The notes under the pieces were generated by a model. That model saw nothing but the letters and a program-made list of their open reading frames with translations. It ran no database searches and was not told the origin of the DNA. DNA of 64,000 bases, from positions 1 to 64,000 of the forward strand of contig RZYO01000001.1 of NCBI GenBank assembly GCA_009930325.1. Direction: 5' to 3'. Made by a program: the position numbers and the translations under genes. Shown piece by piece: positions 7,456-43,217 of the stretch. Each line of letters begins with the position of its first letter. Position 1 is the first letter of the stretch. This DNA is from Spirochaetia bacterium. Its GTDB lineage: Bacteria > Spirochaetota > Spirochaetia > Sphaerochaetales > Sphaerochaetaceae.

Positions 7456-8034
7456 TTATATATGGAGGTATTCTTCTAATCTATTAAATAGTACTAATGC
7501 AAAATCACATTTTAAAGGGATTTTTGGGTCAGCTTGCCTTTTTTTTAAATTTTTCAAACTTAAAGTATTTATTTCAATAGGAAGGCTCCCTTTCGAATAT
7601 TTTTGAATATTTTTTTTATATTCTGGTAAATAATCTCTACTATGTAATGGTGTTTTAAAATGTGATTTTCCACAACAAAAAGCTATCCACTTAGTTAATA
7701 TCTCATCATCCATGTGCATAATTAGAAAATCTTCATAATTCATATAAGAAAACAAAAAATTGGGAATATTTGATGGCTTTTTCAAATAATTATCCATATC
7801 ATTTGCATCATTTCTTAAATATCTATCTTTATCAACCCAAATCAGAATTTCATCGCGAGGATTATCCTTTTTTACTTTTTTATATTCATTTACAACTATA
7901 GAATATTGACCACCACCAGAGGATTTACCTATAAATTTTACAGGAATTTCCTCCTCTTTTAAAAAGCGATTTAATTCTTGAATATATGCCCTTTCAGAAG
8001 GCCCTTCACATACTATAATTATAATCCGATTCAT
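7456..8034 (-). CDS. rloB: RloB family protein (TOPRIM-like nuclease candidate)
   Basis: A 192-aa protein. It opens with IIIIVCEGPSERAYIQEL, the hallmark RloB start (CEGxxE), and has a DKD motif in LIWVDKDRY near residue 68. These two acidic clusters resemble TOPRIM metal-binding motifs. RloB proteins are coded next to AAA ATPases, often near restriction or anticodon-nuclease loci, and are regarded as phage-defence components. GAGGT precedes the ATG. The gene starts 15 bases after the ATPase stop, so the pair is co-transcribed. The nuclease activity is inference from the motifs. Confidence 0.85.
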   Translation of the reverse strand: MNRIIIIVCEGPSERAYIQELNRFLKEEEIPVKFIGKSSGGGQYSIVVNEYKKVKKDNPRDEILIWVDKDRYLRNDANDMDNYLKKPSNIPNFLFSYMNYEDFLIMHMDDEILTKWIAFCCGKSHFKTPLHSRDYLPEYKKNIQKYSKGSLPIEINTLSLKNLKKRQADPKIPLKCDFALVLFNRLEEYLHI

Positions 8035-8049
8035 TTAAAAATACCTCAA

Positions 8050-9321
8050 TTAAATATAAGGATAAGGAATACCTGATAGTCTTCCTTCAAGATATTGTTT
8101 TCTAAAACTAGTAATATTTCTTATACCTTCATAATCAGAAAATCTTTTTAATATTGTACCCTTTTTTAAAGTCTTTTCAACAACACATAATTCAGATATT
8201 CTCATCATATCATCATCCATTATATCGGTATTATGAGTTGTAAAAATAAGTTGTGCATTATTTTTATTATATCTTTTATCTTTAAATAATCTAACTATTT
8301 CAACAAAAAGAAAAGGATGAAGAGAATTCCCTAATTCATCAATAATTAAAATTTTTCCTTCTTTCAAAATTGATAAAACAATACATAATATACTTGCTAC
8401 TCTTTGTGTCCCTATAGATTCATCATAAAAATCAAATATTACTTCATTTCCATTTATATCTTTGTGAAAAGATTTGATTTGTGTTTCTTTTATTTTGTTT
8501 GTTTTAATATCTCTTGTAAATTCATGATTTTTTCTAAAATCAATCGCTGTTGATTCCTTAATTTCATTTTGTTTTATCTCCATGCGAATTATATCTATAT
8601 CAAGTTTTTTTAATAATGGAATCATTTCATCAAATGCAACTTGAATAGAATTATCTAAATTAGTTTTTGCAAGTTTTTCAAGGCTAAAGGTTAAAGGAAC
8701 ATTATTCGATTGATATACTTCGATATTCCTAGATAGGAAATTATAAGAATTAGATACAAAAGAATTTAATCCTGCATAATTTTTTGCTAGAATCTTTAGG
8801 AAAGGTGTTTGAAAATAATTATCAGAATTCATACATTCTACAGAATAAATAGATTCCAATTTTTCAAATGAATAAGTATCTGTCGTTATGCTATCAAATA
8901 TATGTTTTTCTTTAGTAATTAATATAATATTATCATTTTCTTTTTTTAAATTTTCATATACTATTTCATTCTCATTAAATTTTAATGTATATGAACATTT
9001 AATACCATTATTGACAAAAGCTATTTCAAAAACTATGGGGTTTTCATTGTTATGTATTTTATTCGGTTCAAAATTCTCACAATAATATTTACCTCTTATA
9101 ATTTTTATAAATAAACCAAAAGCTTTAATAATATTCGACTTACCTGAGGCATTTGCCCCATAAAAAGCTAATACAGGGACCATTCTACATTCATTTTCTT
9201 CTATGAATGGATATAAATCCATTTCTTTATAGCCGTTAGGAGCTTTTTTTTCTGCATAATTTAAAGGAATCGTAACATTTAAAATTGATTTATAATTTTC
9301 AATATGAAAAGATAATAACAT
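8050..9321 (-). CDS. rloA: AAA family ATPase, RloA-like (AAA_15/OLD-type)
   Basis: A 423-aa SMC/OLD-like ATPase. The N-terminus LLSFHIENYKSI is the usual start of AAA_15/AAA_21 proteins. Walker A is GANASGKS at about 55-62, Walker B is ILIIDELGNSLHP near 324-336, and a switch TTHNTDIM lies near 361-368. GGAGG precedes the ATG. Paired with RloB, it should form an ATPase plus TOPRIM-like effector module, an architecture shared by several anti-phage systems (OLD, PARIS, Gabija). Membership in a named system cannot be decided from the window. A second, partly broken pair lies at 19514-21408. Confidence 0.88.
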   Translation of the reverse strand: MLLSFHIENYKSILNVTIPLNYAEKKAPNGYKEMDLYPFIEENECRMVPVLAFYGANASGKSNIIKAFGLFIKIIRGKYYCENFEPNKIHNNENPIVFEIAFVNNGIKCSYTLKFNENEIVYENLKKENDNIILITKEKHIFDSITTDTYSFEKLESIYSVECMNSDNYFQTPFLKILAKNYAGLNSFVSNSYNFLSRNIEVYQSNNVPLTFSLEKLAKTNLDNSIQVAFDEMIPLLKKLDIDIIRMEIKQNEIKESTAIDFRKNHEFTRDIKTNKIKETQIKSFHKDINGNEVIFDFYDESIGTQRVASILCIVLSILKEGKILIIDELGNSLHPFLFVEIVRLFKDKRYNKNNAQLIFTTHNTDIMDDDMMRISELCVVEKTLKKGTILKRFSDYEGIRNITSFRKQYLEGRLSGIPYPYI

Positions 9322-10136: not shown

Positions 10137-10229
10137 ATTATTAACTTCGTTTGTACAATTGTAATTTTAAATATAAAAATCCTCACTAATGCTTTTTTAA
10201 TTTATATTTGAGTAAATACAAATATGAGT

Positions 10230-10336
10230 TGAAATTAATTTCTCTTCATTCCCCTATTTTTCCCTTGCTTTTATATATTTCTATGTTACAGTAAATTAAA
10301 AGATGAAATTAATTATATAGCTTGAAATTAATTTCA
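10230..10336 (+). promoter_or_regulatory. Triple operator upstream of the SorC-type regulator gene
   Basis: The palindrome TGAAATTAATTTCA occurs at 10323-10336. A near-perfect copy (last base T) is at 10230-10243, and a half-degenerate copy, GAAATTAATTAT, is at 10305-10316. The last site lies directly before the AGGAGG ribosome-binding site, so bound repressor would block transcription or translation. The likely ligand-responsive binder is the SorC-type protein encoded at once downstream (autoregulation), which is inference. Confidence 0.65.
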
Positions 10337-11304: not shown

Positions 11305-12219
11305 ATGAAAAAAAGAAATCTTTTATTAATTATGGCAATGGTTTTATTTATAATACCATCAACACTATTTGCCGGTGGTAATAGTGAAAAGCAAAAACAA
11401 GTATCAATTTGTACTCCATATTTATCATCTGTTACTACAAAACAAATGGTAGAAGATATGGAAGCAAAACTTGTTGAAAATGGATTTACTGTAATAGTAA
11501 ATGATTCAGCTAATGATAATAGCAGATTAGTAAGTGATATTGAAACAAGTGTAGTTTCAGGCTCCAGTGCTATTATTATTGTAAGTGTTGATCCAAAAAT
11601 TTGTGAAACACAAATCAATGAGGCTGCTGATGCTGGAGTTAGTGTATTTGGCTGTGATGCAGGATACATTGATTCAATGCAAATGAATGCTTCAAGTGAT
11701 AACTATCAAATGGGAGAAATGATAAGCTCTTATTTATTTGATAAGATGGATCACAAAGGAACAATCGTACATTTAACACATAGACCACATCCTGGTGTTG
11801 TTCAAAGATCTTATGCAATGGAAGATGTTTTAAAACAAAATCCTGGTATAACTCTAATTAGTGAACATCATGTTGATGTACCAAATCAAATAAATAATTC
11901 AAAAGAAATTGTTGAAAATTTATTAACCACTTACCCAGAAAAAGGAAGTATTGGTGCAATACTATGTGCATGGGATGAACCAGCAATTGGTGCAACACAA
12001 GCATTGCAAGAAGCAGGAAGAGATGAAGTATTTGTAGTAGGTGTTGATGGAAATGAACAAGCTCTAAAATTAATTGAGCAAGGCACTAACTTCAAAGCAA
12101 CATTAGCTCAAGATTTCTTATCAATGGCTGATTTAGTTGCAAATGATGTTACAAAAGTTTTGAATGGTGAAAAAGTAGAAAAAGGCGAGAAATACGTTCC
12201 AGCTCTTTTAATTGATTAA
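11305..12219 (+). CDS. Periplasmic sugar-binding protein (RbsB-like)
   Basis: A 304-aa substrate-binding protein of the periplasmic-binding-protein-like I fold. Residues 1-23 are a signal peptide ending STLFA, followed by GGNSEKQ. There is no lipobox Cys, so it should be soluble in the periplasm. The body has the RbsB pattern: DxNxD-like VNDSANDNSRLV, SDIETSVVSGSSAIIIVSVD, and FVVGVDGNEQALKLI near the C-terminus. AGGAG lies upstream. A strong stem-loop follows the gene, so it is probably expressed above the membrane components. The sugar cannot be deduced. Confidence 0.92.
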   Translation: MKKRNLLLIMAMVLFIIPSTLFAGGNSEKQKQVSICTPYLSSVTTKQMVEDMEAKLVENGFTVIVNDSANDNSRLVSDIETSVVSGSSAIIIVSVDPKICETQINEAADAGVSVFGCDAGYIDSMQMNASSDNYQMGEMISSYLFDKMDHKGTIVHLTHRPHPGVVQRSYAMEDVLKQNPGITLISEHHVDVPNQINNSKEIVENLLTTYPEKGSIGAILCAWDEPAIGATQALQEAGRDEVFVVGVDGNEQALKLIEQGTNFKATLAQDFLSMADLVANDVTKVLNGEKVEKGEKYVPALLID

Positions 12220-12282: not shown

Positions 12283-13785
12283 ATGATAGTTGAAACTAAA
12301 CATTTAACAAAAGTATTTGGATCAATGTATGCTCTTAATGATATTAACTTTTCTATAAAGAAAGGGGAAATACATGGCCTGGTTGGAGAAAATGGAGCAG
12401 GTAAATCTACTCTTATTAAAATCTTAACAGGAGTTTATTCATTAACAGAGGGAGAAATCTATGTTAATGGAGAGTTAGCAGATATAAAAGATCCAGTTAA
12501 AAGTAGAGACTTAGGTATTAATGTTATCCATCAAGATAGACACTTAATCCCCTCTTTTAACGGTATAGAAAACATATTCCTAGGTTTACCCTATGAAAAA
12601 AAGAAAAACAAAGTATCAGTCGATTTTAATGCTATGAGAGCAAAAATAGAAGTCATAATGGATAAATATGGAATAGAAGTACCATTAAATCTTATGGCAA
12701 AAGAATTATCCCCTCCTCAGCAGACTCTCATTGAAATAATAAGAGCAATGTTAAGTGATTGTAAGTTATTAATTCTTGATGAACCAACGGCTGCATTAAC
12801 AGATAAAGAGACAATTATATTATTTGATATAATCAAAAAATTAAATAAAGCTGGAACTGCAATTTTATATGTTACCCACAGAATGGACGAAATCTTTGCA
12901 TTGACAGATAGAATTACAGTTTTTAGAAACGGTGAAATGGTTGAAACTGTTTTAACAAAAAACACAACTAAAGATGATTTAATATCAGCAATGACTGATA
13001 ATGATAAATCAAAAGAGAAAGCTTCAACTATAAACCATGATAACAAAGAGTTAGAGCAAGTACTCTTTAGTGTAAAAAATATAGCTACTAAGGATAAAGT
13101 TGTAAAAGATGCTTCATTTGAAGTTCACAAAGGAGAAATACTTGGTATTTTCGGACTTGGTGGAAGTGGTAGAACAGAGCTATTAGAAGGGATCTATGGT
13201 TATAAAAGTATAACTAATGGAGAAGTCTTTTATAAGGGAAAACGCCTTGAAAAACTATCTCCTAAAAATTCAATTAACAATGGAATTGGGTTGATACATG
13301 AAGATAGACGAGGTCATTCTTTAGTAATAAATAGAAGTATTAAAAACAATGTTGTTTTACCTATAATAGATAGTTATGTCCAAAAAGGATTATATAATAG
13401 CAAAAAAGAAAATAGTGATGTAAATGATAAAATACAAGAACTAAATATAAAGGCTGTTAACAATAATCAAAAAGTTGCACAGTTATCTGGAGGGAATCAA
13501 CAAAAAGTAGTTTTTGCAAAATCCCTAATATTCAATCCTGAAGTATTTCTATGTGATGAACCAACACAAGCTGTAGATATTATGACAAGAAGTGAAATAC
13601 ATACACTTCTAAGAGCAAAAGCAGCTGAAGGTAAAGCTATAGTTTATGTTACAAGTGATTTATTAGAAATGCTTGAAATAGCCGATAATATATTAATTAT
13701 GGCGAATGGAAAAACCCACGAATTAATAAATAATAACAATGTTGATTCAAAAACAATCCTACAATATTGCTACAAAGAAAGGTAA
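12283..13785 (+). CDS. Sugar ABC transporter ATP-binding protein (RbsA-like)
   Basis: A 500-aa protein with two nucleotide-binding domains, the format of ribose/galactose-type importers. Domain 1 has Walker A GENGAGKST (35-43), a LAKELSPPQQ stretch where the signature loop is diverged, and Walker B KLLILDEPTAAL. Domain 2 has the degenerate P-loop GLGGSGRTEL typical of this family and a good LSGGNQQKV signature. The variant signature of domain 1 (LSPPQQ instead of LSGGQQ) is unusual but matches the asymmetric site use known for such transporters. AAGGAAA precedes the ATG. It lies between the binding protein and permease genes. Confidence 0.93.
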   Translation: MIVETKHLTKVFGSMYALNDINFSIKKGEIHGLVGENGAGKSTLIKILTGVYSLTEGEIYVNGELADIKDPVKSRDLGINVIHQDRHLIPSFNGIENIFLGLPYEKKKNKVSVDFNAMRAKIEVIMDKYGIEVPLNLMAKELSPPQQTLIEIIRAMLSDCKLLILDEPTAALTDKETIILFDIIKKLNKAGTAILYVTHRMDEIFALTDRITVFRNGEMVETVLTKNTTKDDLISAMTDNDKSKEKASTINHDNKELEQVLFSVKNIATKDKVVKDASFEVHKGEILGIFGLGGSGRTELLEGIYGYKSITNGEVFYKGKRLEKLSPKNSINNGIGLIHEDRRGHSLVINRSIKNNVVLPIIDSYVQKGLYNSKKENSDVNDKIQELNIKAVNNNQKVAQLSGGNQQKVVFAKSLIFNPEVFLCDEPTQAVDIMTRSEIHTLLRAKAAEGKAIVYVTSDLLEMLEIADNILIMANGKTHELINNNNVDSKTILQYCYKER

Positions 13786-13790
13786 ATATA

Positions 13791-14750
13791 ATGAATAATT
13801 TTAAAAACACAAAGTTCAAAGATATAATGTATACATATGGGACAATAATTGCTCTAGTTCTAATAATCATATTATTTGGAATATTAAATCCAAGAGCATT
13901 TCTTTCTTCAACAAACTTTTGGAATATTACAAGACAAATGGCAATATTAGCTGTTATAGCATTAGGGGCTACATTAATAATGTGTGTTTCTGAATTCGAT
14001 TTGAGTGTTGGAAATATTGCATCTTTTAGTGGAGTATTATCTGCTCTTCTAGCTATAAATGGCGTACCTTTTGTTTTTGCCTTAATTATAGCTACTTTTA
14101 TAAGTGGAATCTTAGGCTTAATAAATGGTTTTATTGTTACAAAGTTTAAAGTAATGTCTTTTATTATTACTCTTGCTATGGGAAGAATGATATATGGCTT
14201 AACATATTGGTTAAGTGGTGGAGCAATAATTTTCAATGATATTCCTAAATCATTTAAGTTTATTGGAACAGCTAAAATTGGACCTATCCCCTATTTAACA
14301 ATTCTAATGATAATAATATCTATAATATTTGTTTATATAACTAAATATACAGCTTTTGGTAGAAAATTATATGCTATCGGTGGAAATGAAGTAGCAAGTA
14401 AAGTATCTGGTGTAAAAGTAGAACTTAATAAAACTCTAGCTTTTGCTATCTCAGGACTAATGGCTGGTTTTGCTGGAGTATTACTAGCAAGTCGAGTTGG
14501 ATCTGCATCCCCTACAGCAGGAGATGCTTATAACTTAAATGCTTATGCTACTATATTTATTGGAATAACATTATTCAAAGAAGGCGTTCCAAACATACTA
14601 GGGACTCTAGTAGGTGTTGCAATATTTACAGTATTAGCAAATGGATTAACAATCCTTCAAGTTCCTACCTTTATCCAAAACATTCTAACAGGACTAATAA
14701 TTATAATTGCAGTAGTAGGACAAAAAGTAGGAAACAGTAATAATGACTAA
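13791..14750 (+). CDS. Sugar ABC transporter permease (RbsC-like)
   Basis: A 319-aa multi-spanning membrane protein of the RbsC/BPD_transp_2 family, with many hydrophobic segments from residue 15 to the C-terminus and the family stretches GATLIMCVSEFDLSVG and AFGRKLYAIGGNEVAS. The ATG at 13791 was chosen because AAAGG lies just upstream; an earlier in-frame ATG would add eight residues overlapping the ATPase end. It is the only permease gene in the operon, so it should act as a homodimer. Its end overlaps the next start by eight bases. Confidence 0.92.
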   Translation: MNNFKNTKFKDIMYTYGTIIALVLIIILFGILNPRAFLSSTNFWNITRQMAILAVIALGATLIMCVSEFDLSVGNIASFSGVLSALLAINGVPFVFALIIATFISGILGLINGFIVTKFKVMSFIITLAMGRMIYGLTYWLSGGAIIFNDIPKSFKFIGTAKIGPIPYLTILMIIISIIFVYITKYTAFGRKLYAIGGNEVASKVSGVKVELNKTLAFAISGLMAGFAGVLLASRVGSASPTAGDAYNLNAYATIFIGITLFKEGVPNILGTLVGVAIFTVLANGLTILQVPTFIQNILTGLIIIIAVVGQKVGNSNND

Positions 14751-15510
14751 AATATATTCAATGAAAAATAAATTAATTATGGAAAAAGACAATCCATTTT
14801 TAATCGGATATTTATTAGCCGGTTACAAAGACTGTGATGAATTTTTAAACCTAATAAACAATATTCCAAATAATACAATTGATGTTTTAGAGTTGGGATT
14901 TCCATCAACTAATCCATATTCTGATGGAAAAGTAATATCTAATGCTCATGCCATTGTTGATAAAAATGTTGCAAATTCTCCCTCTTATTGGGAAAAAATA
15001 AGAAAAACAACTGATTATCCTATCTGGTTAATGGCTTATAAAGATGATTTTATTACCACAGGAATTTATAAAGAATTCGCGAAATTAAATTTAATTGATG
15101 CAATTGTTATTCCTGATACCAATAATGAAAATAGAATCGAACTTCAAGAAGAATTAAAGCAATATGATGTTGATGTTATAGGCTTTGTAAACCCTTCTAT
15201 GAGTGAAATTGAAATGGATCAAGTATTAAGTAAATTTACTTTTATTTATGAACAATTATATGTAGGAGTTACAGGAAGTAATCATAGTGAAACCAATTAT
15301 GATAAAATGCTTAATTACTCATTAACAAAATATCCCAATACAATACCTTTTGCGGGCTTTGGATTAAATAATAAAGAAAAGTTAGATATTGTCTATAATA
15401 AAGGATTTAAAGGGGCTGTTATAGGAACTGAACTATTAAAAAGATATAATACTTGTGAAGAAGAATTATTTAACTTCTTAATAGATTTATCTAGGAGTAA
15501 AGATTTATGA
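14743..15510 (+). CDS. TrpA-like TIM-barrel lyase in a sugar operon (no TrpB)
   Basis: A 255-aa protein clearly homologous to tryptophan synthase alpha. The catalytic loop LELGFPSTNPYSDG keeps Glu50 and Asp61, equivalent to Glu49 and Asp60 of E. coli TrpA. The glycerol-phosphate loops GVTG and AGFGLNNKEK, and the C-terminal AVIGTELLK, are also kept. TrpA normally splits indole-glycerol phosphate by a retro-aldol reaction and needs TrpB; no trp gene is near. Here it is translationally coupled to an FGGY kinase (4-base overlap) and to an RbsC-like permease (8-base overlap). I infer a retro-aldolase that cleaves a phosphorylated imported sugar to a triose phosphate. A second homolog is at 33493-34212. 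Confidence 0.88.
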   Translation: MTKIYSMKNKLIMEKDNPFLIGYLLAGYKDCDEFLNLINNIPNNTIDVLELGFPSTNPYSDGKVISNAHAIVDKNVANSPSYWEKIRKTTDYPIWLMAYKDDFITTGIYKEFAKLNLIDAIVIPDTNNENRIELQEELKQYDVDVIGFVNPSMSEIEMDQVLSKFTFIYEQLYVGVTGSNHSETNYDKMLNYSLTKYPNTIPFAGFGLNNKEKLDIVYNKGFKGAVIGTELLKRYNTCEEELFNFLIDLSRSKDL

Positions 15511-16934
15511 AAATAGCTACATTTGATTTTGGAACTACAGCTATTAAATTTGTAGTTTTAGATGAAAAAGCAAATATTTTATATAATAAAAAAATTGATA
15601 TAGATACTATAATAAAAGATGGTTTTATTGAGCAATCACCAGCTCAATGGCTAAATGTGTTTAATGATTTAATTAAATCTTATAAAGAAAAAGATCAACT
15701 CACTCATCTTATCTGCTCAGGTCAAATGCAAGATTTAATATTTATTGGTGAGAATAACACACCTCTTTGTAATGCAATTCTTTACAATGATCAAAGAGGA
15801 GATAAGTATGTTAATAACATAAGTAAAGAAATAGAAGAAAAGACAACAATAACAATGAATGGTTCTATTCCTTTAGTAAAAATGTTTTGGATGAGAGATA
15901 ATAAAGTTCAAATACTTAATAAAACTAAAAAGATATTATTTTCTCCAAAAGATTACATAACTCTATATCTAACAAATATTGCAGTAGCTGATACAGTAAC
16001 CCTATCTACAACAGGGATGATGGATATTTATAAAAAAGAATATATAAAAGAAATAGAAGTTGAAAAAGGATTACTTCCTAAGATATTAAATTGTGGAGAT
16101 GTAGTTGGCCCCTTAGAAAAAGGTAAAGCAAAAGAACTTGGGTTAAGTGAGAAATTAGTTGTTTTTGCAGGTTCCGGAGACGCAGGTGCTACAACTCTTG
16201 CAAGTGGAATTGTTAAAGATAATGAATTAAACATAAACTTAGGTACTAGCGGTTGGATTGCTAATATATCTAAAGCTCCTAATAAGGAAGCTTTTAATCT
16301 ATGTGCTATTAATGAAAACTATTATATTAATGTAATTCCTGTATTAAATGCTTCATCAGTCCATAAATGGGTAACTAATATGATATTCAAAGATAATGAT
16401 AACAAATATCAAGAAATGGATAAACTATTAGAAGAAAATATTAATTATGAAACTGATTTAATCACTCTCCCCTATTTAGTTGGGGAAAGATATCCTATTG
16501 CAGACAATAAAATTAGAGGTTGCTACTTCGGATTAAACCCTAAAACATCATTAATAGATTTAGTAATAAGTGCATTAGAAGGGGTTGCCTTCTCTCTTAA
16601 ACAAGGAATTGTTGAACTAGGAGTTACACCAACAACTATATCTCTTATTGGTGGTGGTGCATTAACTAAAGTTTGGAATCAAATATTTAGTAATATTTTT
16701 GAAGTACCAGTTACTGTCTATAGTGATAGTGAATACCTTCCAAGTATTTCATTAACAAGTTCTGTATTAATAAATGAAGGACTTATAGACTCATACGATT
16801 CTTTTATTATTGAAATGCTATCTAAAAAGGATAGACAAGTTTATAAACCACAACCTGAGAGATTTACTACCTATAGGAATAAATTCAAGAAGTTCAAAAA
16901 GCTATACCCTGCCCTAAAAGAAATTAATAAATAA
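15507..16934 (+). CDS. FGGY-family carbohydrate kinase (xylulokinase-like)
   Basis: A 475-aa kinase of the FGGY family. The N-terminal nucleotide-binding strand is ATFDFGTTAIKFVVLD, the substrate region is LICSGQMQDLIF followed by ILYNDQRGDKY, a GSGDAGATTLASG loop begins the second domain, and NLNLGTSGW and SLIGGGALTKVW complete the ATP site. The sequence is closest in style to xylulokinases. It should phosphorylate the sugar brought in by the adjacent transporter, giving the substrate of the TrpA-like enzyme. Its ATG overlaps the TrpA-like stop (ATGA). It is the last gene before the terminator. Confidence 0.92.
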   Translation: MKIATFDFGTTAIKFVVLDEKANILYNKKIDIDTIIKDGFIEQSPAQWLNVFNDLIKSYKEKDQLTHLICSGQMQDLIFIGENNTPLCNAILYNDQRGDKYVNNISKEIEEKTTITMNGSIPLVKMFWMRDNKVQILNKTKKILFSPKDYITLYLTNIAVADTVTLSTTGMMDIYKKEYIKEIEVEKGLLPKILNCGDVVGPLEKGKAKELGLSEKLVVFAGSGDAGATTLASGIVKDNELNINLGTSGWIANISKAPNKEAFNLCAINENYYINVIPVLNASSVHKWVTNMIFKDNDNKYQEMDKLLEENINYETDLITLPYLVGERYPIADNKIRGCYFGLNPKTSLIDLVISALEGVAFSLKQGIVELGVTPTTISLIGGGALTKVWNQIFSNIFEVPVTVYSDSEYLPSISLTSSVLINEGLIDSYDSFIIEMLSKKDRQVYKPQPERFTTYRNKFKKFKKLYPALKEINK

Positions 16935-16981: not shown

Positions 16982-17013
16982 TTTCAGTCTCTAGAAATAG
17001 AGACTGAAATTTT
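16982..17013 (+). terminator. Rho-independent terminator of the sugar operon
   Basis: A perfect 12-bp stem (TTTCAGTCTCTA with its complement) and a GAAA tetraloop are followed by TTTT. It lies about 50 bases after the kinase stop. Confidence 0.92.
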
Positions 17014-17418: not shown

Positions 17419-18012
17419 ATGGATTATAAGAAGAGAATAATTGATTATATGAAAGAAACTGGTGGGATGATTACTTCATCATATTGTAAGGATAATGGAA
17501 TCCCTACTATTTATTTAAACAGATTAGAAAAATCTGGCTTATTATTTAAAATAGAGAAAGGGCTATATTTAAATAATGAAGCAAATTTTGATGATTATTA
17601 TTTTTTTCAGTATCGCTTTAAGAAAACTATTTATTCATATGAAACGGCTCTCTTTTTACAAGGATTAACAGACAGACTTCCTTTAGTAAAGGATGTATCA
17701 GTTCCATATAATTATAAATTTAATGATTTAATAACGAATTTAAATGTTTATTATGTCAATAAGAATATATTCGAGTTAGGTTCAATTAAAATTAAAACTA
17801 TGTATGGTAATTTTGTGAGAGTATATTCTTTTGAAAGGATTCTGTGCGATTTTATTGCTCACAAAGATAAAATAGATATTGAAATATATTTAAAAGCAAT
17901 AAAATCATATCAAAGATATGAAAATAGAGATCTAAATAAATTATTTGAGATTGCTCAAAAAATGAAAATTGAAAAAACAGTTAGAGAAGTTATGGAGATT
18001 GCTTTTGAATAA
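17419..18012 (+). CDS. abiEi: AbiEi family type IV antitoxin
   Basis: A 197-aa antitoxin/repressor. An N-terminal winged helix (about 1-55: GMITSSYCKDNGIPTIYLNRLEKSGLL then KGLYL) is followed by the AbiEi antitoxin domain with YSYETALFLQGLTDR and the C-terminal VRVYSFERILCDFI pattern. AbiEi neutralises the nucleotidyltransferase toxin AbiEii without direct binding and represses the operon. The toxin frame opens one base after the stop. AAGG lies about 11 bases before the ATG. It is full length, unlike the relic at 9765. Confidence 0.9.
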   Translation: MDYKKRIIDYMKETGGMITSSYCKDNGIPTIYLNRLEKSGLLFKIEKGLYLNNEANFDDYYFFQYRFKKTIYSYETALFLQGLTDRLPLVKDVSVPYNYKFNDLITNLNVYYVNKNIFELGSIKIKTMYGNFVRVYSFERILCDFIAHKDKIDIEIYLKAIKSYQRYENRDLNKLFEIAQKMKIEKTVREVMEIAFE

Positions 18013-18078
18013 AATGGAGTTAATAAAAAGGTGCCATAGAGTTAGTAAAGAAAAAGGTCTACCATTTATAATCCAATT

Positions 18079-18846
18079 ATGATTTATTATTTTTTAGAAA
18101 GTATTTTAAAGGAATTGTCGAAAGGGAAATATAAAGAAAACTTTATATTTAAAGGCGGTTTTATATTATCTAATGTTGTTGGAATAAATGCAAGAAGCAC
18201 TACAGATATTGACCTTTTATATAAAGATAGTAAATTTTCTGATGAAAAAATTTTAGAAATATTAGATGATTCATTAAGCAAAAAATCTGATGACGCTCTA
18301 ACCTATATAATAAAAAATATAGAAAATATTAAAGAAGACAATCAGTACGGGGGATTTAGGGTAAAAATTCTTTGTAAATTAGAAAATATTGAACAAATTG
18401 TACATTTAGATATTGCTATAGGAGATATTGTTACACCAGGTCCAATCGATTATAATTTTAGTAGTATTTTCGGGCATGATAAAATAGAAATAAATGCTTA
18501 TCCGATTGAAACAATGATAGCCGAGAAATTACAAACTATATATAAAAGAAATTTTCTTAATAGTCGTAGTAAAGATTATTATGATTTGCATATTCTCTAT
18601 AAGTTAAAATTAAAAGAAATAGATTTTATGAATCTAAAAAATGCTTGTGAGAGGACTTTTACTTATCGAAATACAGAGTTTGATATAGTCAAAATTAAAG
18701 AATTATTAGAAAAATTAAAAGTTGACGAAACTTTTTTAAATCGCTGGAAAATTTATGCTAAGAAAAACCCATATGTAGGTGAAACAAGTTTTGAAAAAGT
18801 TATTGATGATTCATTAAGTATTGTTAATAAAATTTCTTTACTTTAA
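18079..18846 (+). CDS. abiEii: AbiEii nucleotidyltransferase toxin, N-terminus split by a frameshift
   Basis: A 255-aa nucleotidyltransferase of the AbiEii/AbiGii family. FIFKGGFIL and the STTDIDLLY motif supply the GG and DxD residues of the active site, and MIAEKLQTIY and SRSKDYYDL are further family blocks. The family normally begins about 20 residues earlier with a 'SKEKG' helix. That helix is readable at 18014-18078 (MELIKRCHRVSKEKGLPF) but in a different frame, ended by a TGA. The ancestral start was therefore probably 18014, one base after the antitoxin stop, and one nucleotide has been lost near 18075. The internal ATG at 18079 could still make a shortened protein. Its activity is uncertain. 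Confidence 0.82.
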   Translation: MIYYFLESILKELSKGKYKENFIFKGGFILSNVVGINARSTTDIDLLYKDSKFSDEKILEILDDSLSKKSDDALTYIIKNIENIKEDNQYGGFRVKILCKLENIEQIVHLDIAIGDIVTPGPIDYNFSSIFGHDKIEINAYPIETMIAEKLQTIYKRNFLNSRSKDYYDLHILYKLKLKEIDFMNLKNACERTFTYRNTEFDIVKIKELLEKLKVDETFLNRWKIYAKKNPYVGETSFEKVIDDSLSIVNKISLL

Positions 18847-19513: not shown

Positions 19514-20198
19514 CTAAGAAATAATAGTATTTATTAAATCAAATAACTCTTCTATGTTTGATCCATTTTGACACTCATTATTTTTAGATATAATAGTTCT
19601 TTTAATATACACATCTTTTTCTTTTGCATTATATGAATATATATTTGACAAGTATTTACACTTTCTCAATCGACCTATCATAACTTGATAGGAATTATCT
19701 TTAGAATTTAAATAAGTATATATTTCTTTTTTATTTTTAAATTTGTCAATATCTCTGAATTTCAAATCCTTTTTTATAAAAGTATGATAATCACCACCTT
19801 GGAAAGAAGGAATATGCAAACAAGCAATATATTCAAAATCTGGATTATTAATAATAATAAAAATTGGAATCCTCCTACTTATATTATTATTATAGCAATA
19901 TGATAATAATTCATTAAAATTGGAATTTTCGTTGGGATTCTTTTTTTAACACATCTAAATCTATTATTATAAATTTTGCAAGATAATTACTGTTTCCAGA
20001 TTCTTTTATTTTCTCTAAAAATTTAGAATATCCACCACCATGCATATTTTTGAGAATTAAAGTAATATTATCTGGTTATATTTTCCTCATATTATCAAAA
20101 TAATTAAATTCAGTATCCCCTTCACATAAAATATAAAATTTATGTGTAAATTTTTTAATTACTCTTCTCGGTCTTGATTCTACTTTATTTTTAGCCAC
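19514..20198 (-). pseudogene. Broken RloB-family gene (nonsense codon and frameshift)
   Basis: Minus-strand reading from a GTG at 20198 gives an RloB-like start (RPRRVIKKF, then FYILCEGDTEFNYF) with the CEGxTE motif. It is broken by an in-frame TAA at 20078-20076 and continues in the same frame (NMHGGGYSKFLEK, then FIIIDLDVL with the DxD motif). The frame is lost at a run of seven A (19941-19947) and resumes in another frame to a stop at 19514. Joined together, the product would be about 228 aa, normal for the family. The GTG overlaps the ATPase stop by eight bases and has GGAGGA upstream, so the ancestral pair was translationally coupled. Confidence 0.8.
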
Positions 20199-21408
20199 TA
20201 AATGTTCCTCCAAGAATACCCTTCATATAAAATTCATGAATTTTGGTTGTTTCATATCGAACATCCGGAAAATCTGCTAAACTATAAAGTTGTGAATTTA
20301 ATGTATCTATATCTTTTGATACAAAATATATTTGTTCTTTCATATATTTCTTTAAATCTAAATGTAAAGCGTTATGGGTAGTAATAATTAATTGTCCTTT
20401 ATGATTTTTACTATTTATAAAGGAAATAATTTTATCCGATAATACAGGATTTAAAACTCTATCCATTTCATCTGCAAATACTACTTTATCCTCATAGACA
20501 ACTCTAAAAATTTGTACAGCCCAAGCAAAAAATTCAATTACCCCACTTGAATCATATTCTAATACTCTTGAAAAATTTTGATTATTTTCATTATTTCTAA
20601 TAATTTTGGATTTTGTAAAAGGATGCTCTTCGTTAACTTCTAATTTAATTATTGAAGGGTCAACCATTTTTAAAATATTTAAAAACCTTGAATCTTTAAT
20701 TATTCTCTGATCATCTTCTTCTTTTTTAAAATCTTTATATAAGTTATAAGTATAAAGAATTTCATCTGCAAATAAATTATTATTAATATAATTAACAAAT
20801 TCTGAACTAAAAAGTTCTCCTAATAATGCTAGTTTATTAATAAATAATCCAATATTATTTTCTCTGATTGAGTTAGTAAAAATTGAAGAATTATATTTTG
20901 AAGTATCAAAGCCAAAGTTATAATTAATTTTAGTTTGATTATTTTCTTTAGTTAGATTCCTTATACAATCAAAAACAGTATATTCTTTTCCATAATTTGT
21001 TTTTTTCACCGATAAAACTTCTTTTTTAATACCAATATAATCGATAGTTAATGAATACAAATATAAAATATCATTAATTAAAATTTCTATATGAAAATAT
21101 TGTGAAGTATCACAGTCATCTATATTGTCTGAACAATTATTATTAAAATTTATTAAATCTTTATAGGATTTAATTCTTTCATTCGTTTTAAACATAGCTT
21201 TAAAAAAATTGATGCTTTTTATTAAGTTTGATTTTCCACCTGCATTTTCCCCAACAATAACAATAGTTTTTAATACATCTAAACCATAATTGGTTTTAGT
21301 AAAATTGTCAGGAAATCTATTCTTAACTTTATTAGCTGGAGCTAGTAATTCAAAAATACTTAACTCCTTAAATGAACAAAAATTTTTAAAATCATATCGT
21401 GTTATCAT
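20191..21408 (-). CDS. AAA family ATPase (AAA_15/OLD-like), partner of broken RloB
   Basis: About 405 aa. Walker A is GENAGGKS (53-60) in the family context TIVIVGENAGGKSNLI, Walker B is VVFADEMDRVLNP, and a switch TTHNALHLD follows. The start at 21408 (MITRYDFKNF) was chosen because AGGA lies about eight bases upstream and the family fold begins there; an earlier in-frame Met would add 27 hydrophobic residues. It is intact, although its downstream RloB partner is broken. It is only distantly similar to the ATPase at 8050-9321, so the two loci are separate acquisitions rather than a recent duplication. Confidence 0.85.
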   Translation of the reverse strand: MITRYDFKNFCSFKELSIFELLAPANKVKNRFPDNFTKTNYGLDVLKTIVIVGENAGGKSNLIKSINFFKAMFKTNERIKSYKDLINFNNNCSDNIDDCDTSQYFHIEILINDILYLYSLTIDYIGIKKEVLSVKKTNYGKEYTVFDCIRNLTKENNQTKINYNFGFDTSKYNSSIFTNSIRENNIGLFINKLALLGELFSSEFVNYINNNLFADEILYTYNLYKDFKKEEDDQRIIKDSRFLNILKMVDPSIIKLEVNEEHPFTKSKIIRNNENNQNFSRVLEYDSSGVIEFFAWAVQIFRVVYEDKVVFADEMDRVLNPVLSDKIISFINSKNHKGQLIITTHNALHLDLKKYMKEQIYFVSKDIDTLNSQLYSLADFPDVRYETTKIHEFYMKGILGGTFSG

Positions 21409-21582
21409 AAAATAATCCTCTTGCATATAAAACCAAAAAATTGTTTTAATAATCATATTATACCTTAATATAGTATATAATACCATCAATAAACCATAAT
21501 TTTGTTTTATATTAAACTAATTTAATTATATTGTGCCTATAAATTTATTATAGTATGTAAAATTCTAATAAAATCACAATTT

Positions 21583-24039: not shown

Positions 24040-24981
24040 ATGAAAGGAAAAACTAATTTTCTTAATCCAAAACAATCTACACGATTTATAAAAGCCATGG
24101 GAAGAGATTGGGATTTATACCTATTATTGATTCCAGGTTTTATCTGGTTTATAATGTTTTGTTATGTACCTATGATTGGCTTAAGAACAGCTTTCTATGA
24201 TTACAATGTTTTTAAAGGTCTTTCAGGTAGTAAATTTGTAGGTCTTGCAAATTTTAAAGAATTTTGTAGCGGACCTGATTTTGTGAGAACCATAAAAAAC
24301 ACTTTTATGATAGCACTTTATCAATTAATTTTTTGTTTTCCAATTCCAATTATTTTAGCTATTGCTATTACTGAAATGAAAAATAAATTTGTCAGTAGGC
24401 TCACTCAAACAGTAACCTTTCTCCCTCATTTTATATCAGTTGTTGTTGTTTGTGGACTTGTTGTAAATTTTCTATCTCCCAGCCAAGGAATTGTGAATAT
24501 TATTCTAAAAAAATTAGGACATGAACCTATTTATTTTATGGTATTACCTCAATATTTTAGAGGAGTATATACTTCAATGAGCTTATGGCAAAATGCAGGG
24601 TTTAATGCAATTGTCTACATAGCAGCTTTAGTGGGGATAGATCCTCAATTATATGAAGCGGCCATTGTTGATGGTGCGGGGAAATGGAAAAGAATAACTA
24701 ATGTTACTATTCCTAGCATAATGCCTACTATTGTAACAATGTTAGTTCTTCAAATGGGAAAAATGGTCAAAGTTGGATATGAATCAATAATTCTTTTATA
24801 TAAACCGACAACTTATGCAACTGCGGATGTAATTTCAACTTATGCTTATAGAACTGGTATTTGTAATAGAAACTATGGACTTGCTACAACAGCAGGTTTA
24901 TTTGAAGCTATTATTGCTTTGATAATGGTTGTTGGGGCAAATAGATTAAGTCGAAAAGTAACAGAATCAACTATTTGGTAG
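24040..24981 (+). CDS. ABC transporter permease, LplB type
   Basis: A 313-aa inner-membrane permease of the LplB family. It has a first membrane segment at about 30-50 (LYLLLIPGFIWFIMFCYVP), several more up to residue 300, and the EAA loop YEAAIVDGAGKWKRITNVTIP that contacts the ATPase. It forms a heterodimer with the next gene product. No ATPase gene lies in the operon; LplB/YtcP-type importers commonly borrow a shared MsmX-like ATPase. Confidence 0.92.
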   Translation: MKGKTNFLNPKQSTRFIKAMGRDWDLYLLLIPGFIWFIMFCYVPMIGLRTAFYDYNVFKGLSGSKFVGLANFKEFCSGPDFVRTIKNTFMIALYQLIFCFPIPIILAIAITEMKNKFVSRLTQTVTFLPHFISVVVVCGLVVNFLSPSQGIVNIILKKLGHEPIYFMVLPQYFRGVYTSMSLWQNAGFNAIVYIAALVGIDPQLYEAAIVDGAGKWKRITNVTIPSIMPTIVTMLVLQMGKMVKVGYESIILLYKPTTYATADVISTYAYRTGICNRNYGLATTAGLFEAIIALIMVVGANRLSRKVTESTIW

Positions 24982-24990
24982 GAGACCCTC

Positions 24991-25884
24991 ATGCAAGAAC
25001 AAACAAACAGATTAATTGAAAGTCGTGGAGAAAAAATATTTAATAGTCTAATGATTATCATTGGTATAATTATTTGTATAATAACCTTCTACCCAATTTA
25101 TTATACATTTATTGCATCAATAAGTAAGCCTTTATATGTATCAAATGGTAGTGTAACATTTTTACCTCATGGAATTAATTTTGAAAGCTATAAAGTTGCA
25201 ATAACAGATAAAGCAATTTGGATTGCTTTTACAAACACTTTATTTTATACGATATTTGGAGTTACTGTTAATTTACTTTTCACAATGACAATGGCATATG
25301 CACTTTCTAAAAAGCGTTTATTTTTAAGAAAACAACTCACATTATTTACAGTATTTACAATGTGGTTTTCTGCAGGGATAATTCCATTGTTTATTGCTTT
25401 TAAAGATTATGGACTATTGAATACAAGAACTTCTATTATATTTGGATTTGCAATTAATACTTACAATTTAATCATCTTAAAAAGTTTTTTTGAACAAGTA
25501 CCAAACTCATTAGAAGAAGCAGCTTTTATGGATGGCGCAAGCAACATAAGAATACTCTTCAGTATTTATTTACCTCTATCAAAACCTGCTTTAGCAACTA
25601 TTGGAATGTTTTATGCAGTAAATAGATGGAATGGATATTTCTGGGCTATGAACTTAATTAGAGATGATAATAAAATGCCACTGCAAGTATTATTGAAAAA
25701 ATTGATTGTTGATAGAGTTGCCAATGAAACAGAAGCTGCAATTATTACATCACAAAGTATGAGCTCTCCTCTAACAATAATATATGCAATTATAATTATT
25801 GCGATTATTCCAATGATGATAGCTTACCCCTTTATACAAAAATACTTCAAATCAGGATTAACAATTGGAGCCGTAAAAGGTTAA
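24991..25884 (+). CDS. ABC transporter permease, YtcP/LplC type
   Basis: A 297-aa partner permease with six predicted membrane segments and the EAA loop EEAAFMDGASNIRILFSIYLPL. AGGAG lies just before the ATG, nine bases after the LplB stop. The family imports complex oligosaccharides such as rhamnogalacturonan or glycosaminoglycan fragments. The downstream lyase and sulfatases favour the latter here. Confidence 0.92.
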   Translation: MQEQTNRLIESRGEKIFNSLMIIIGIIICIITFYPIYYTFIASISKPLYVSNGSVTFLPHGINFESYKVAITDKAIWIAFTNTLFYTIFGVTVNLLFTMTMAYALSKKRLFLRKQLTLFTVFTMWFSAGIIPLFIAFKDYGLLNTRTSIIFGFAINTYNLIILKSFFEQVPNSLEEAAFMDGASNIRILFSIYLPLSKPALATIGMFYAVNRWNGYFWAMNLIRDDNKMPLQVLLKKLIVDRVANETEAAIITSQSMSSPLTIIYAIIIIAIIPMMIAYPFIQKYFKSGLTIGAVKG

Positions 25885-25920
25885 TTAAAAAATAAATAAT
25901 ATATATAAAAGGAGAAAAAA

Positions 25921-27498
25921 ATGAAAAAAACATTATTAGTAACATTATTAGTTACTACTATGGTAACAGGCTTATTTGCTAACGGAAATAAAGAGGAAAG
26001 CAATAAAGTAAATGAAACAAAACCTCTAACAGGGAATCAACTTGTTAGTGAACCAACAGAATTATCCATATTTTTAAATTTTAATAATATGCCATTTAAT
26101 TATGAATGGAAAGCATGGCAAGCAATTGCTGAAGATACTAACGTATCACTTAAGGGAGTAATTCCTCAAAGTAGTTCAAATGAAGAAGAAGCTTTTAATT
26201 TAATGTTAAGTTCAGGTGATTTAGCTGATATTATTGGTTATAAAGATCCTGCAGTATTAGAACAATTAGGAAGGAATGGAGGGTTGTTAGCTTTAAATGA
26301 TTTAATAAAAGAATATGCCCCAAATCTTCAAAAATATATTGATACACACCCTGAATTTGCAAAGAAATGTTATGCTTTAGATGGAAATATATATTTTATT
26401 CCAAAAGATTTTGAATTAAAATCTGCTGAGTTCTGGTGGATTAGAAATGATTGGTTACAAAAATTAAATTTACAAATCCCTACAACCGTTAATGAACTTT
26501 ATAATGTATTAACAGCTTTTCGAAATAATGACCCTAATGGTAATGGGCTAAAAGATGAAATACCATTGTTTGATAGAGCTGGGTATAAAATGCCCGATGA
26601 ATATTTATATCTTTGGGATTCATCAACAGAATTCTATGCTAGAAATGGAAAAATTGAATTCGAACCAATGGAAGAAAATTTTAAAGTTGGTGTTAAGAAT
26701 CTTGTACAATGGTATAGAGAAGGATTAATAGATCCAGAAATCTTTACTCGTGGACCAAAAAGTCGAGATATTTTATTCTCTGGAGACCTTGGTGGTTGTA
26801 CTCACGACTGGGTAAGTACAGGCAACTATAATAAAAACTTAAAAGATTCTATTAATGGTTTTGAAGTAATACCAATGGCACCACCAGCCCTTGCATCAGG
26901 AGAAGTAGTAGAGAGAACAGCTAGAACCCCAGGAGCTGGATGGGGTATTTCATATCAATGTGAAAATCCAGAATTAGCAATAAAGTTTTTTGATTATTTC
27001 TTCTCTCAAGCTGGCTCAGACTTTATAAATTGGGGCATCAAAGGCGATACATATGAAATAAACGATAAGGGTGAAAAATACTTCCTTGATTCCGTATTAA
27101 ATAGTGAAAAAGGACCACTTGGATATTTAAGAGGTTATGGAGTTCAATACAGGATTGGAATGTGTCAAGATGCAGACTATGAATATGCTTTTATGACTGA
27201 TATTGGGAAAGTAGCAACGAAAATGTATAATTCAAATTTACAATGGTATAGAGACAATGTACCTCCTTATTTGGATGGTGCAATCCAACTTAAATATAAT
27301 GCCGATGATGAAGCTGAATATTTAAGAATAATGGGAAGTATTAGACCATATGTGGCTGAAAAATTCCAGTCTTGGATGCTTGGAACAGCTTCTTTTGACG
27401 CTGATTATCAAAACTTTATTTCGCAATTGAAGCAAAGAGGTATTGAAAGAGCTGTTGAAATAAATCAAGAAGCTTACGATAAATATCTAGGAAATTAA
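25921..27498 (+). CDS. Extracellular oligosaccharide-binding protein (LipO-like)
   Basis: A 525-aa solute-binding protein of family 1. The signal peptide (1-20) ends VTGLFA, followed by NGNKEESNK; no lipobox Cys is present. Its large size and the blocks FYFIPKDFELKSAEFWWIRNDWL-like region (about 155-180) and the Asp-rich calcium-loop-like DPNGNGLKDEIP (about 203-214) are usual for LplA/LipO proteins. AAAGGAG precedes the ATG. It supplies substrate to the two upstream permeases. A large palindrome follows the gene. Confidence 0.9.
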   Translation: MKKTLLVTLLVTTMVTGLFANGNKEESNKVNETKPLTGNQLVSEPTELSIFLNFNNMPFNYEWKAWQAIAEDTNVSLKGVIPQSSSNEEEAFNLMLSSGDLADIIGYKDPAVLEQLGRNGGLLALNDLIKEYAPNLQKYIDTHPEFAKKCYALDGNIYFIPKDFELKSAEFWWIRNDWLQKLNLQIPTTVNELYNVLTAFRNNDPNGNGLKDEIPLFDRAGYKMPDEYLYLWDSSTEFYARNGKIEFEPMEENFKVGVKNLVQWYREGLIDPEIFTRGPKSRDILFSGDLGGCTHDWVSTGNYNKNLKDSINGFEVIPMAPPALASGEVVERTARTPGAGWGISYQCENPELAIKFFDYFFSQAGSDFINWGIKGDTYEINDKGEKYFLDSVLNSEKGPLGYLRGYGVQYRIGMCQDADYEYAFMTDIGKVATKMYNSNLQWYRDNVPPYLDGAIQLKYNADDEAEYLRIMGSIRPYVAEKFQSWMLGTASFDADYQNFISQLKQRGIERAVEINQEAYDKYLGN

Positions 27499-27510
27499 CA
27501 TTTTTTACTT

Positions 27511-27536
27511 TAGGAGATAATAATTATTATCTCCTA
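27511..27536 (+). terminator. Perfect 26-bp palindrome after the LipO-like gene
   Basis: Two 13-bp arms (TAGGAGATAATAA and complement) are exact with no spacer. It begins 13 bases after the binding-protein stop and ends ten bases before the next ATG. There is no T-run, so it probably reduces or stabilises transcripts rather than ending the operon. Confidence 0.75.
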
Positions 27537-27545
27537 ATATTTATA

Positions 27546-28694
27546 ATGAGGTTTAAAGTGAATGATAAAATTAAAAATGCTATTGAGATAGCAGTTAATC
27601 AAATAAATTCTTGCTTTCCAAAATTTGAAAATAAATTCCCCTATTCAAACAGTGAAAATAATTTTTATAAAGCAAGTGATAATGTCGAATGGACAACAGG
27701 ATTCTGGACTGGAGAAATCTGGTTGGCTTATGAATATACAAAAGATGAAAAGTTTAAAGAAATTGCTTTAAAGCAAGTAGAATCATTTAAAAAGCGTATT
27801 GAAAATAAAATTGATGTGAATCATCACGATATGGGTTTTTTATATTCCCCATCATGTGTTGCAGCTTATAAATTAGTTAAATCAAATACGGCTAAGGAAG
27901 CTGCATTATTAGCAAGTGAAAATCTAATTTCAAGATACCAAGAAAAGGGTGAATTTATTCAAGCTTGGGGTAATCTAGGAGATGATAATAATTATAGATT
28001 AATTATCGATTGTTTATTAAATCTTCCTTTATTATTTTGGGCAACTGAAACAACTAAAAATCAAAAATATAGAACTATTGCATTAAAACATATTTCTACA
28101 GCAATGAAAGTAATATTAAAAGATGATAACTCAACGTATCATACTTACTATTTTGATAAAAAGACAGGCCTGCCATTACGAGGAGTTACAAGACAAGGAA
28201 ACAGAGATGATTCTGCATGGGCAAGAGGTCAAGCCTGGGGCATTTATGGCTCAGCATTAGCTTACAGTTATACTAAAAATTATGATTATATTGAAAAATT
28301 TAAAAAAATGTGTGACTTCTTCATTTCTCATCTTCCATCAGATTATTTGCCATACTGGGATTTTGACTTTTCTGATGGATCAAAAGAGCCTCGTGATTCT
28401 TCTGCCTCTGCAATCGCTATTTGTGGCATTTACGAAATGATTAAATATTTAAATTATAAAGAAAGTACATATTATAAAGAAATTGCAGATAAATTATTAA
28501 ATGTTTTAATTGATAAATGTCAAGCAAATAATCCAAAAGAATCAAATGGATTATTGCTTCATGGAACTTATGCAAGAAAGAGTAAATATAATCCTTGTAA
28601 TAATCGAGGCGTAGATGAATGTAACACTTGGGGTGATTTCTTTTATTTTGAAGCATTAATGCGAGCTTATAAAAATTGGGATTCATATTGGTAA
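27546..28694 (+). CDS. GH88 unsaturated glucuronyl hydrolase
   Basis: A 382-aa (alpha/alpha)6-barrel enzyme that removes the unsaturated uronic acid left by polysaccharide lyases. The two catalytic-type aspartates are visible in NHHDMGFLYSPS (near residue 97) and in NYRLIIDCLLNLPLL (near 158). Trp-rich EWTTGFWTGEIWLAYE near the N-terminus is typical. There is no signal peptide, so it acts in the cytoplasm. The ATG at 27546 lacks a ribosome-binding site, while a GTG at 27558 has GAGG six bases upstream and may be the true start. It is the first enzyme gene of the operon. Confidence 0.92.
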   Translation: MRFKVNDKIKNAIEIAVNQINSCFPKFENKFPYSNSENNFYKASDNVEWTTGFWTGEIWLAYEYTKDEKFKEIALKQVESFKKRIENKIDVNHHDMGFLYSPSCVAAYKLVKSNTAKEAALLASENLISRYQEKGEFIQAWGNLGDDNNYRLIIDCLLNLPLLFWATETTKNQKYRTIALKHISTAMKVILKDDNSTYHTYYFDKKTGLPLRGVTRQGNRDDSAWARGQAWGIYGSALAYSYTKNYDYIEKFKKMCDFFISHLPSDYLPYWDFDFSDGSKEPRDSSASAIAICGIYEMIKYLNYKESTYYKEIADKLLNVLIDKCQANNPKESNGLLLHGTYARKSKYNPCNNRGVDECNTWGDFFYFEALMRAYKNWDSYW

Positions 28695-28698
28695 AATT

Positions 28699-30543: not shown

Positions 30544-30547
30544 GAAT

Positions 30548-33492: not shown

Positions 33493-34212
33493 TTAGCAAT
33501 TATTTTTAAAACTTCTTATAACTTTAATTAATTGACTTTTATCTTCTTGTACTTTTAGAATTGCTGAACCTACAAAAATAGCATCAGCTTTTGCATTTTT
33601 TGCATATAATGCATCTTCAGTAGTATGGATACCAACACCACAGTAAATTGGTCTCTCTATTCCTTCTTCTCTTAAATAGCTAATGCAGGACTCTAAAGTT
33701 GGATAAGTTTTATTTATTTCACTTTCATCACGAGTTTTTGCTTGTAAGTATACAAAGCCATTAGATTCCTTTGCATATAAAATCTCAGTTCTATCTAATT
33801 TTCTCTGAACATAGCAACTTACTCTTAATTTATTAGCTATGATGGCATTTTTAATTTTATCATCTTCTAAACCACAAAGAATAATATCACTAAAATCATT
33901 ATCTACACAAAATTTTATGAATTTATCAACTCCAATTTCTTTAATAGTATTTTCATAAACTAAAAGAATAAATGAAGTTTGAGGTAATGATTTTTTAATT
34001 TTAATCATTCCTTCCATATACTTTTCATAGTCATCACAAGCCTTTAAGGCTTCTCTCATACGATTAGCAATGAAATCTCCTTCTAAATATGGGTCTCTAG
34101 ATGGAAAATCAATCTCAATAATATCACAACCAGCTTCAACATAAGTTTTAGCTACATCAATACTAGATTCTATTGATGGATATCCATTTGATAAGTAACA
34201 AATTAAATCCAT
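33493..34212 (-). CDS. Second TrpA-like TIM-barrel protein, in a nucleoside operon
   Basis: A 239-aa homolog of tryptophan synthase alpha. The catalytic loop IIEIDFPSRDPYLEG keeps the first acid (Glu33) and has Glu44 where TrpA has Asp60. The phosphate loop YCGVGIHTTEDA and end AIFVGSAILK match TrpA, while the GVTG loop is replaced by LQAKTRDES. No TrpB or other trp gene is present. It is the last gene of an eleven-gene operon with a kinase, nucleoside phosphorylase, BtpA and alcohol dehydrogenase, and its start abuts the dehydrogenase stop. I infer a retro-aldolase acting on a phosphorylated pentose-type intermediate. Confidence 0.82.
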   Translation of the reverse strand: MDLICYLSNGYPSIESSIDVAKTYVEAGCDIIEIDFPSRDPYLEGDFIANRMREALKACDDYEKYMEGMIKIKKSLPQTSFILLVYENTIKEIGVDKFIKFCVDNDFSDIILCGLEDDKIKNAIIANKLRVSCYVQRKLDRTEILYAKESNGFVYLQAKTRDESEINKTYPTLESCISYLREEGIERPIYCGVGIHTTEDALYAKNAKADAIFVGSAILKVQEDKSQLIKVIRSFKNNC

Positions 34213-35370: not shown

Positions 35371-35387
35371 ATCTATTTGCTCCTATA

Positions 35388-36179: not shown

Positions 36180-36185
36180 AAGTTT

Positions 36186-41973: not shown

Positions 41974-41994
41974 AAAAGTTCCATTTTATTATAA

Positions 41995-42016
41995 TCTGCC
42001 CAAAAACTTGGGCAGA
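41995..42016 (-). terminator. Stem-loop between receptor and ATPase genes
   Basis: A 9-bp perfect stem (TCTGCCCAA with TTGGGCAGA) and 4-base loop lie between the BMP receptor stop (42041) and the ATPase start (41973). There is no good T-run, so partial termination or RNA protection is likely. Confidence 0.75.
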
Positions 42017-42040
42017 ATTAAATTGTTTAAATTATTCTTA

Positions 42041-43201: not shown

Positions 43202-43217
43202 TTCTATATTCTCCTTC

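Follow-up and report, generated by a model that had tools for sequence, protein, structure and literature searches.

Why should a sugar-uptake operon in a spirochaete encode a homolog of TrpA? TrpA is a textbook enzyme known for a single reaction and for its dependence on TrpB; plant lyases of the BX1 type, which keep the same substrate, are the exception known to act alone. The gene that raises this question, here called T1, resides at positions 14743-15510 on the forward strand of a 64,000-nucleotide stretch of contig RZYO01000001.1 from a Spirochaetia bacterium (the window, to which coordinates refer unless another contig is named). Its open reading frame, Pfam assignment, alignment, phylogeny and predicted structure lead us to describe the product as a TrpA-like protein and a putative TrpB-independent lyase.

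The T1 open reading frame is complete, with an ATG start, 255 encoded amino acids and a TGA stop at 15508-15510. The sole Pfam match of the protein is Trp_syntA (110.3 bits, E=1e-31), which confirms the assignment to the TrpA family made in an earlier, sequence-only reading of this DNA, and its sequence relatives in the PDB are nearly all TrpA. An AlphaFold2 model derived from 24 aligned sequences (pLDDT 92.3, pTM 0.91, with the lowest confidence near the loop-6 region, residues 171-190) predicts a TrpA TIM-barrel fold, and the best PDB matches to this model found by Foldseek are ligand-bound structures of Salmonella TrpA (TM 0.87). When scored with TIGR00262 (cut-off 102.35 bits), T1 of the window reaches 90.3 bits and its orthologs 85.8-110.1, thereby straddling the cut-off, while the TrpA-like domain of the fusion proteins described below scores 122.9 and the canonical TrpAs of the family 269-278. 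Because several T1-type members lie at or just above this cut-off, automatic naming will label some of them tryptophan synthase. Comparison of T1 with its closest ortholog yields a dN of 0.141 and a dS of 1.07 (dN/dS about 0.13), a pattern like that of the adjacent kinase gene when compared in the same manner (dN 0.136, dS 0.968). These substitution rates indicate that purifying selection acts on T1.

The operon is read from the forward strand and comprises, in order, genes for a SorC regulator, a CUT2 binding protein, an ATPase, a permease, T1 and an FGGY kinase. Domain matches identify the first product as a SorC/DeoR-family regulator with a sugar-phosphate-sensing domain (PF04198; 10347-11285), which is preceded by an imperfect palindrome at 10224-10249 (16-nt arms, 81% complementary) that is a weak candidate for an operator. 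Regulation through a Schiff-base lysine as in DeoR of B. subtilis was considered and rejected, since this protein carries LCGG where DeoR has LKGG with its effector lysine. This replacement suggests that the effector is probably bound non-covalently. Next are the periplasmic sugar-binding protein of the CUT2 type (Peripla_BP_4; 11305-12219), the CUT2 sugar ABC transporter ATPase (12283-13785) and the permease (13791-14750), whose ATG start was picked from the closest ortholog (the longest open reading frame begins with TTG at 13767). The first 8 bp of T1 are shared with the permease gene, which ends at 14750, and its last 4 bp with the kinase gene, whose ATG at 15507 and the T1 stop codon together form the sequence ATGA; start and stop overlaps had been reported earlier. 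The kinase gene (15507-16934) is followed 47 bp past its stop by a hairpin resembling an intrinsic terminator (16982-17009, forward strand), with a perfect 12-bp stem and then TTTTAT. The closest solved structures, 4wt7 for the binding protein and 3hz6 for the kinase, match at low identity, and neither reveals the substrate.

Other genes of the window include the following. An AbiEi/AbiEii-like toxin-antitoxin pair (17419-18846, forward) lies directly 3′ of the operon, and two AbiLi/AriA-like ATPase genes are located on either side of the region on the reverse strand (7456-9321, accompanied by an AbiLii-like partner, and 20191-21489). Farther downstream, a forward-strand cluster at 24040-33350 encodes an SBP_bac_1 transporter, a GH88 protein, a heparinase II/III-like lyase and two sulfatases, and probably targets a sulfated uronic-acid polysaccharide. 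A single open reading frame at 46763-48046 (forward) combines an IS66 Orf2-like domain with an IS66 transposase domain and terminates well before the transposase model is complete.

A scan of 139 genomes of the same family uncovered six further T1 orthologs with 40-79% identity, giving seven in total from three genera; below these, the matches drop to about 30% and correspond to trpB-linked TrpAs. In all seven cases T1 is situated directly 5′ of the FGGY kinase gene and is preceded by sugar-transporter genes. A SorC regulator gene comes first in the operons of the window and of three other genomes (G080, G036 and G055) and is absent upstream in G093; in G070 and G059 the short contigs do not extend far enough to show its position. 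Scans of 393 genomes of the phylum and, by sequence pattern, of an 84,980-species collection returned no T1 orthologs outside this group. The pattern scan, run over genome contigs, recovered the TrpA-like/kinase pair only from spirochaetes: the nearest relative belongs to Pleomorphochaeta, and the remainder come from uncultured Spirochaetaceae/Spirochaetales. Relatives on plasmids were set aside as controls only, as the loci that were opened proved to be trp operons of the canonical kind or, in one case, a kinase operon that lacks a TrpA-like gene.

The association with the kinase extends to fusion of a related TrpA-like domain. Three genomes (G106, G114 and G088) encode proteins of 758-761 amino acids in which Pfam places Trp_syntA at residues 11-256, followed by FGGY_N and FGGY_C. 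In G106 and G114 the fusion gene shares 4 bp with the upstream CUT2 permease gene, and in G088 a 2-bp gap separates the two, so permease, TrpA and kinase follow one another just as in the unfused operon. The kinase of the window carries FGGY_N and FGGY_C domains and the catalytic Asp (Asp233 of E. coli XylB), and its score against the xylulokinase model TIGR01312 is 262 bits, below the cut-off of 380.25. It has MQD in place of MHG, as part of a GQMQ(D/N) motif that is common to the operon and fusion kinases where xylulokinase has MHG. In a phylogeny with small sampling and some long branches, the operon kinases, the fusion kinases and PDB entry 3hz6 form one branch (support 93/95), with E. coli XylB and the remaining FGGY kinases placed outside it. 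The coupling to a sugar kinase proposed in the sequence-only reading therefore holds in all seven orthologs and in three TrpA::FGGY fusions, and coupling of T1 to the kinase is well supported by this genomic evidence.

One relative departs from this arrangement. G493, which belongs to another family of the same class, encodes a binding protein, ATPase, permease and kinase with 67%, 54%, 69% and 47% identity to those of the window, but its permease and kinase genes are not separated by a TrpA-like gene, and no match of ortholog level occurs in the rest of the genome. The kinase gene begins right at the permease stop, and the contig ends 162 bp past the kinase, so a displaced TrpA-like gene may lie beyond it. 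A search of this organism's genus with the binding protein did not find a second kinase-only case. T1 may thus have been acquired within the family, may have disappeared from G493, or may lie elsewhere in that genome. An operon without T1 also suggests that the kinase may not need T1 and that its product may have other fates.

If T1 is coupled to the kinase, has it kept the catalytic machinery of TrpA? We aligned the T1 orthologs, the fusions, a second TrpA-like lineage (T2, described below), E. coli TrpA and 44 trpB-linked TrpAs. Glu50, Asp61 and Tyr169 of T1 correspond to Glu49, Asp60 and Tyr175 of E. coli TrpA, and the phosphate site is formed by G205-F206-G207 (E. coli 211-213) and G228-T229 (234-235), with glycines 211, 213 and 234 kept and Ser235 replaced by Thr. 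The earlier claims that the catalytic pair aligns and that the glycerol-phosphate loops are retained are thus borne out, and the catalytic Glu and Asp, Tyr175 and the phosphate glycines are invariant in all seven orthologs and three fusions. Tyr102, Gly181, Thr183, Gly184 and F212 (E. coli numbering, used from here on) are also retained in T1 and the fusions.

Two other regions have diverged. Loop 2, which carries Asp60 and contacts TrpB, reads PSTNPYSD in T1 of the window versus PFSDPLAD in TrpA. F54 is lost in all T1, fusion and T2 sequences, and S55, D56 and A59 are changed in most T1 and fusion proteins, whereas canonical TrpAs keep F54 in 43 of 44 cases and A59 in every case. Similarly, position 58 is Tyr in 13 of 13 T1, fusion and T2 proteins versus none of the 44 canonical proteins. 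At position 177, which lies in the TrpA indole pocket, all ten T1 and fusion proteins have Gln (with T2 included, 12 Gln and one Asn among 13), versus V35, A5, I2 and S2 in the canonical set; Glu at position 176 occurs in T1 alone. The idea that the indole pocket had turned polar consequently holds for residue 177 in all orthologs but not for positions 22, 100, 102, 127, 153 and 212, which are still apolar or aromatic in T1.

In the TrpA phylogeny, a branch with support 93/91 separates the 45 canonical TrpAs from T1, the fusions and T2. Each of these three groups has 100% bootstrap support, and their grouping together, which rests on long branches, is provisional. The window itself contains a T2 gene (33493-34212, reverse strand, 239 amino acids), a second orphan TrpA-like gene that also has Tyr58 and Gln177. 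It is the last gene of an operon (33493-43958, reverse) that includes genes for an Fe-ADH, a BtpA-family barrel, a PNP/UDP phosphorylase, a PfkB kinase, an isochorismatase-like protein and a Bmp/nucleoside-type ABC transporter, with GntR-UTRA upstream. At loci L130-L133 (genomes G008, G028, G055 and G015), its relatives form tandem arrays of two or three TrpA-like genes, and in some of these copies the catalytic Glu/Asp is altered. The arrays lie within or close to operons that also contain genes for Fe-ADH, isochorismatase and PfkB.

Could a distant TrpB serve T1? The host assembly (3.51 Mb in 413 contigs, 92% complete, 7.9% contamination) has a canonical trpA (C84:7431-8171) beside trpB (C84:8212-9363), and on inspection the surrounding genes seem to make up a full trp cluster. 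It also has a solitary trpB at G000:C410:14670-15818 with no trpA nearby. The sequence-only description of T1 as lacking TrpB is therefore correct in that no trpB adjoins the gene, but not for the genome, which holds both a trpBA pair and a solitary trpB. A trpB without its own trpA had been named as an observation that would count against an independent T1, and one is present; yet this TrpB type is widespread in family genomes without T1, and on this ground we rejected it as the dedicated partner of T1. TrpB matches above cut-off occur in 93 of the 139 family genomes, while TrpA-family matches of any kind at 1e-8 are limited to about 30 of the 139, and six of seven T1 carriers have a solitary TrpB. 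This solitary type is often found in family genomes without any TrpA match, an occurrence that would fit indole salvage. Genomes that carry T1 have canonical trpBA separately, with the exception of G059 (76% complete). In genus g11 (G036 and G055) trpBA lies 86-103 bp upstream of the T1 operon in the same direction, and no trp genes lie close to the operons of G080 and G093.

Taken together, these observations give about an even chance that T1 is a stand-alone TrpA-fold lyase that acts after the FGGY kinase in sugar uptake, performing retro-aldol cleavage of the kinase product and releasing glyceraldehyde 3-phosphate (G3P). That T1 is catalytic, that it cleaves in this manner, that G3P is released and that the kinase precedes the lyase are steps we infer. 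The lyase interpretation given in the sequence-only reading is thus plausible and supported in part, and maize BX1 sets a precedent for TrpA-type catalysis in the absence of TrpB (PMC11574760). The CUT2 ABC transporter would import a sugar or polyol, and the FGGY kinase would phosphorylate its terminal carbon. T1 would then hold the glyceryl-phosphate end in the former TrpA phosphate site while Glu50 and Asp61 of T1 break the neighboring C-C bond. The products would be D-glyceraldehyde 3-phosphate, which would enter glycolysis, and a small carbonyl compound that varies with the sugar (e.g. glycolaldehyde, hydroxyacetone or dihydroxyacetone). A sugar phosphate is presumably what the SorC regulator detects. 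Formation of G3P would require a substrate of the ketohexose 6-phosphate, aldopentose 5-phosphate or keto-acid analogue type. FGGY kinases that act on ketopentoses phosphorylate C5, and retro-aldol cleavage from there gives no G3P; as a result, the G3P claim limits the substrate to types rarely seen for FGGY kinases. The kinase-only operon of G493 and the largely apolar pocket outside residue 177 likewise count against this reading. More tentatively, T1 might belong to a broader class of sugar-phosphate aldolases that have the TrpA fold and work without TrpB, recognizable by Tyr58 and a Y-x-Q motif (Tyr175/Gln177), with one lineage paired or fused with FGGY kinases and another in nucleoside-type ABC/PfkB operons with tandem copies.

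The main rival, which we consider unlikely, is that T1 is an epimerase, isomerase or other proton-transfer enzyme acting on the kinase product, comparable to ribulose-phosphate 3-epimerase or allulose-6-phosphate epimerase, and not a C-C lyase. TrpA belongs to the ribulose-phosphate-binding-barrel superfamily, which includes epimerases and decarboxylases (PMC5980557). E. coli pairs the FGGY kinase gene lyxK with the barrel gene sgbH and the epimerase-annotated sgbU, an acid/base pair suits epimerization as well, and the kinase-only operon of G493 fits an optional conversion step. However, the family matches of T1 are to TrpA only, and T1 keeps the catalytic and phosphate residues of TrpA. The catalytic residues also bear on the improbable idea that T1 binds a sugar phosphate without catalysis and serves the kinase as a regulator or scaffold: fusion of a T1-type domain to the kinase and the existence of a kinase-only operon would suit such a partner, but an invariant Glu/Asp/Tyr set (10 of 10) is needless for this role.

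The two remaining explanations keep T1 closer to tryptophan metabolism. Cleavage of an imported, phosphorylated aryl glycerol, at the extreme indole glycerol, with indole fed to the solitary TrpB or to trpBA, would agree with the six apolar or aromatic pocket positions, the nearby trpBA of G036 and G055 and the solitary TrpB of most carriers. We nevertheless judge it just as improbable as the scaffold, given Gln177 in every ortholog, the many family genomes with solitary TrpB and no T1, the operons of G080 and G093 away from trp genes, and a transporter of the sugar type. Least probable is that T1 is a redundant or decaying TrpA paralog that has stayed in the operon by chance, as its TrpA homology, and a Pfam name that by itself suggests tryptophan synthesis, might imply. 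Seven orthologs in one synteny, the low dN/dS, the kinase fusion in relatives and a branch separate from trpB-linked TrpAs all speak against it.

If a bacterial TrpA lineage does serve sugar catabolism as a retro-aldol lyase, it would demonstrate re-use of the barrel and provide an undescribed class of catabolic aldolase whose mechanism uses neither a metal nor a lysine (Schiff base), and annotations naming T1-type proteins tryptophan synthase would need correction. The kinase fusion offers a single protein for testing this hypothesis. In agreement with the sequence-only reading, which knew of no such aldolase, our searches of the open full-text literature, a scope within which absence is not proof, turned up neither a TrpA-family enzyme with a catabolic role nor a protein that fuses TrpA to FGGY.

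Among known systems, TrpA shares with T1 the TIM-barrel fold, the catalytic Glu/Asp, Tyr175 and the phosphate-site glycines, but T1 lacks a TrpB partner gene, has a changed loop 2 (PFSDP), carries Gln in place of Leu/Val177 and Tyr in place of Leu58, and is only about 20-25% identical to canonical TrpAs. The maize proteins BX1 and IGL are TrpA homologs that are active without TrpB, cleaving indole-3-glycerol phosphate, and BX1 is 63% identical to maize TrpA (PMC11574760). BX1 thus keeps indole-3-glycerol phosphate as its substrate, whereas T1 is associated with a sugar operon and has a polar residue 177. The E. coli pair lyxK-sgbH resembles the kinase/T1 pair in that an FGGY kinase adjoins a barrel enzyme thought to use its product. 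Finally, in E. coli rhaB-rhaD and fucK-fucA an FGGY kinase is followed by retro-aldol cleavage, as proposed for the T1 operon. Those pathways use class II metal aldolases and place the phosphate on C1, whereas the lyase that we propose would have the TrpA fold and is expected to act on substrates with the phosphate at the opposite end.
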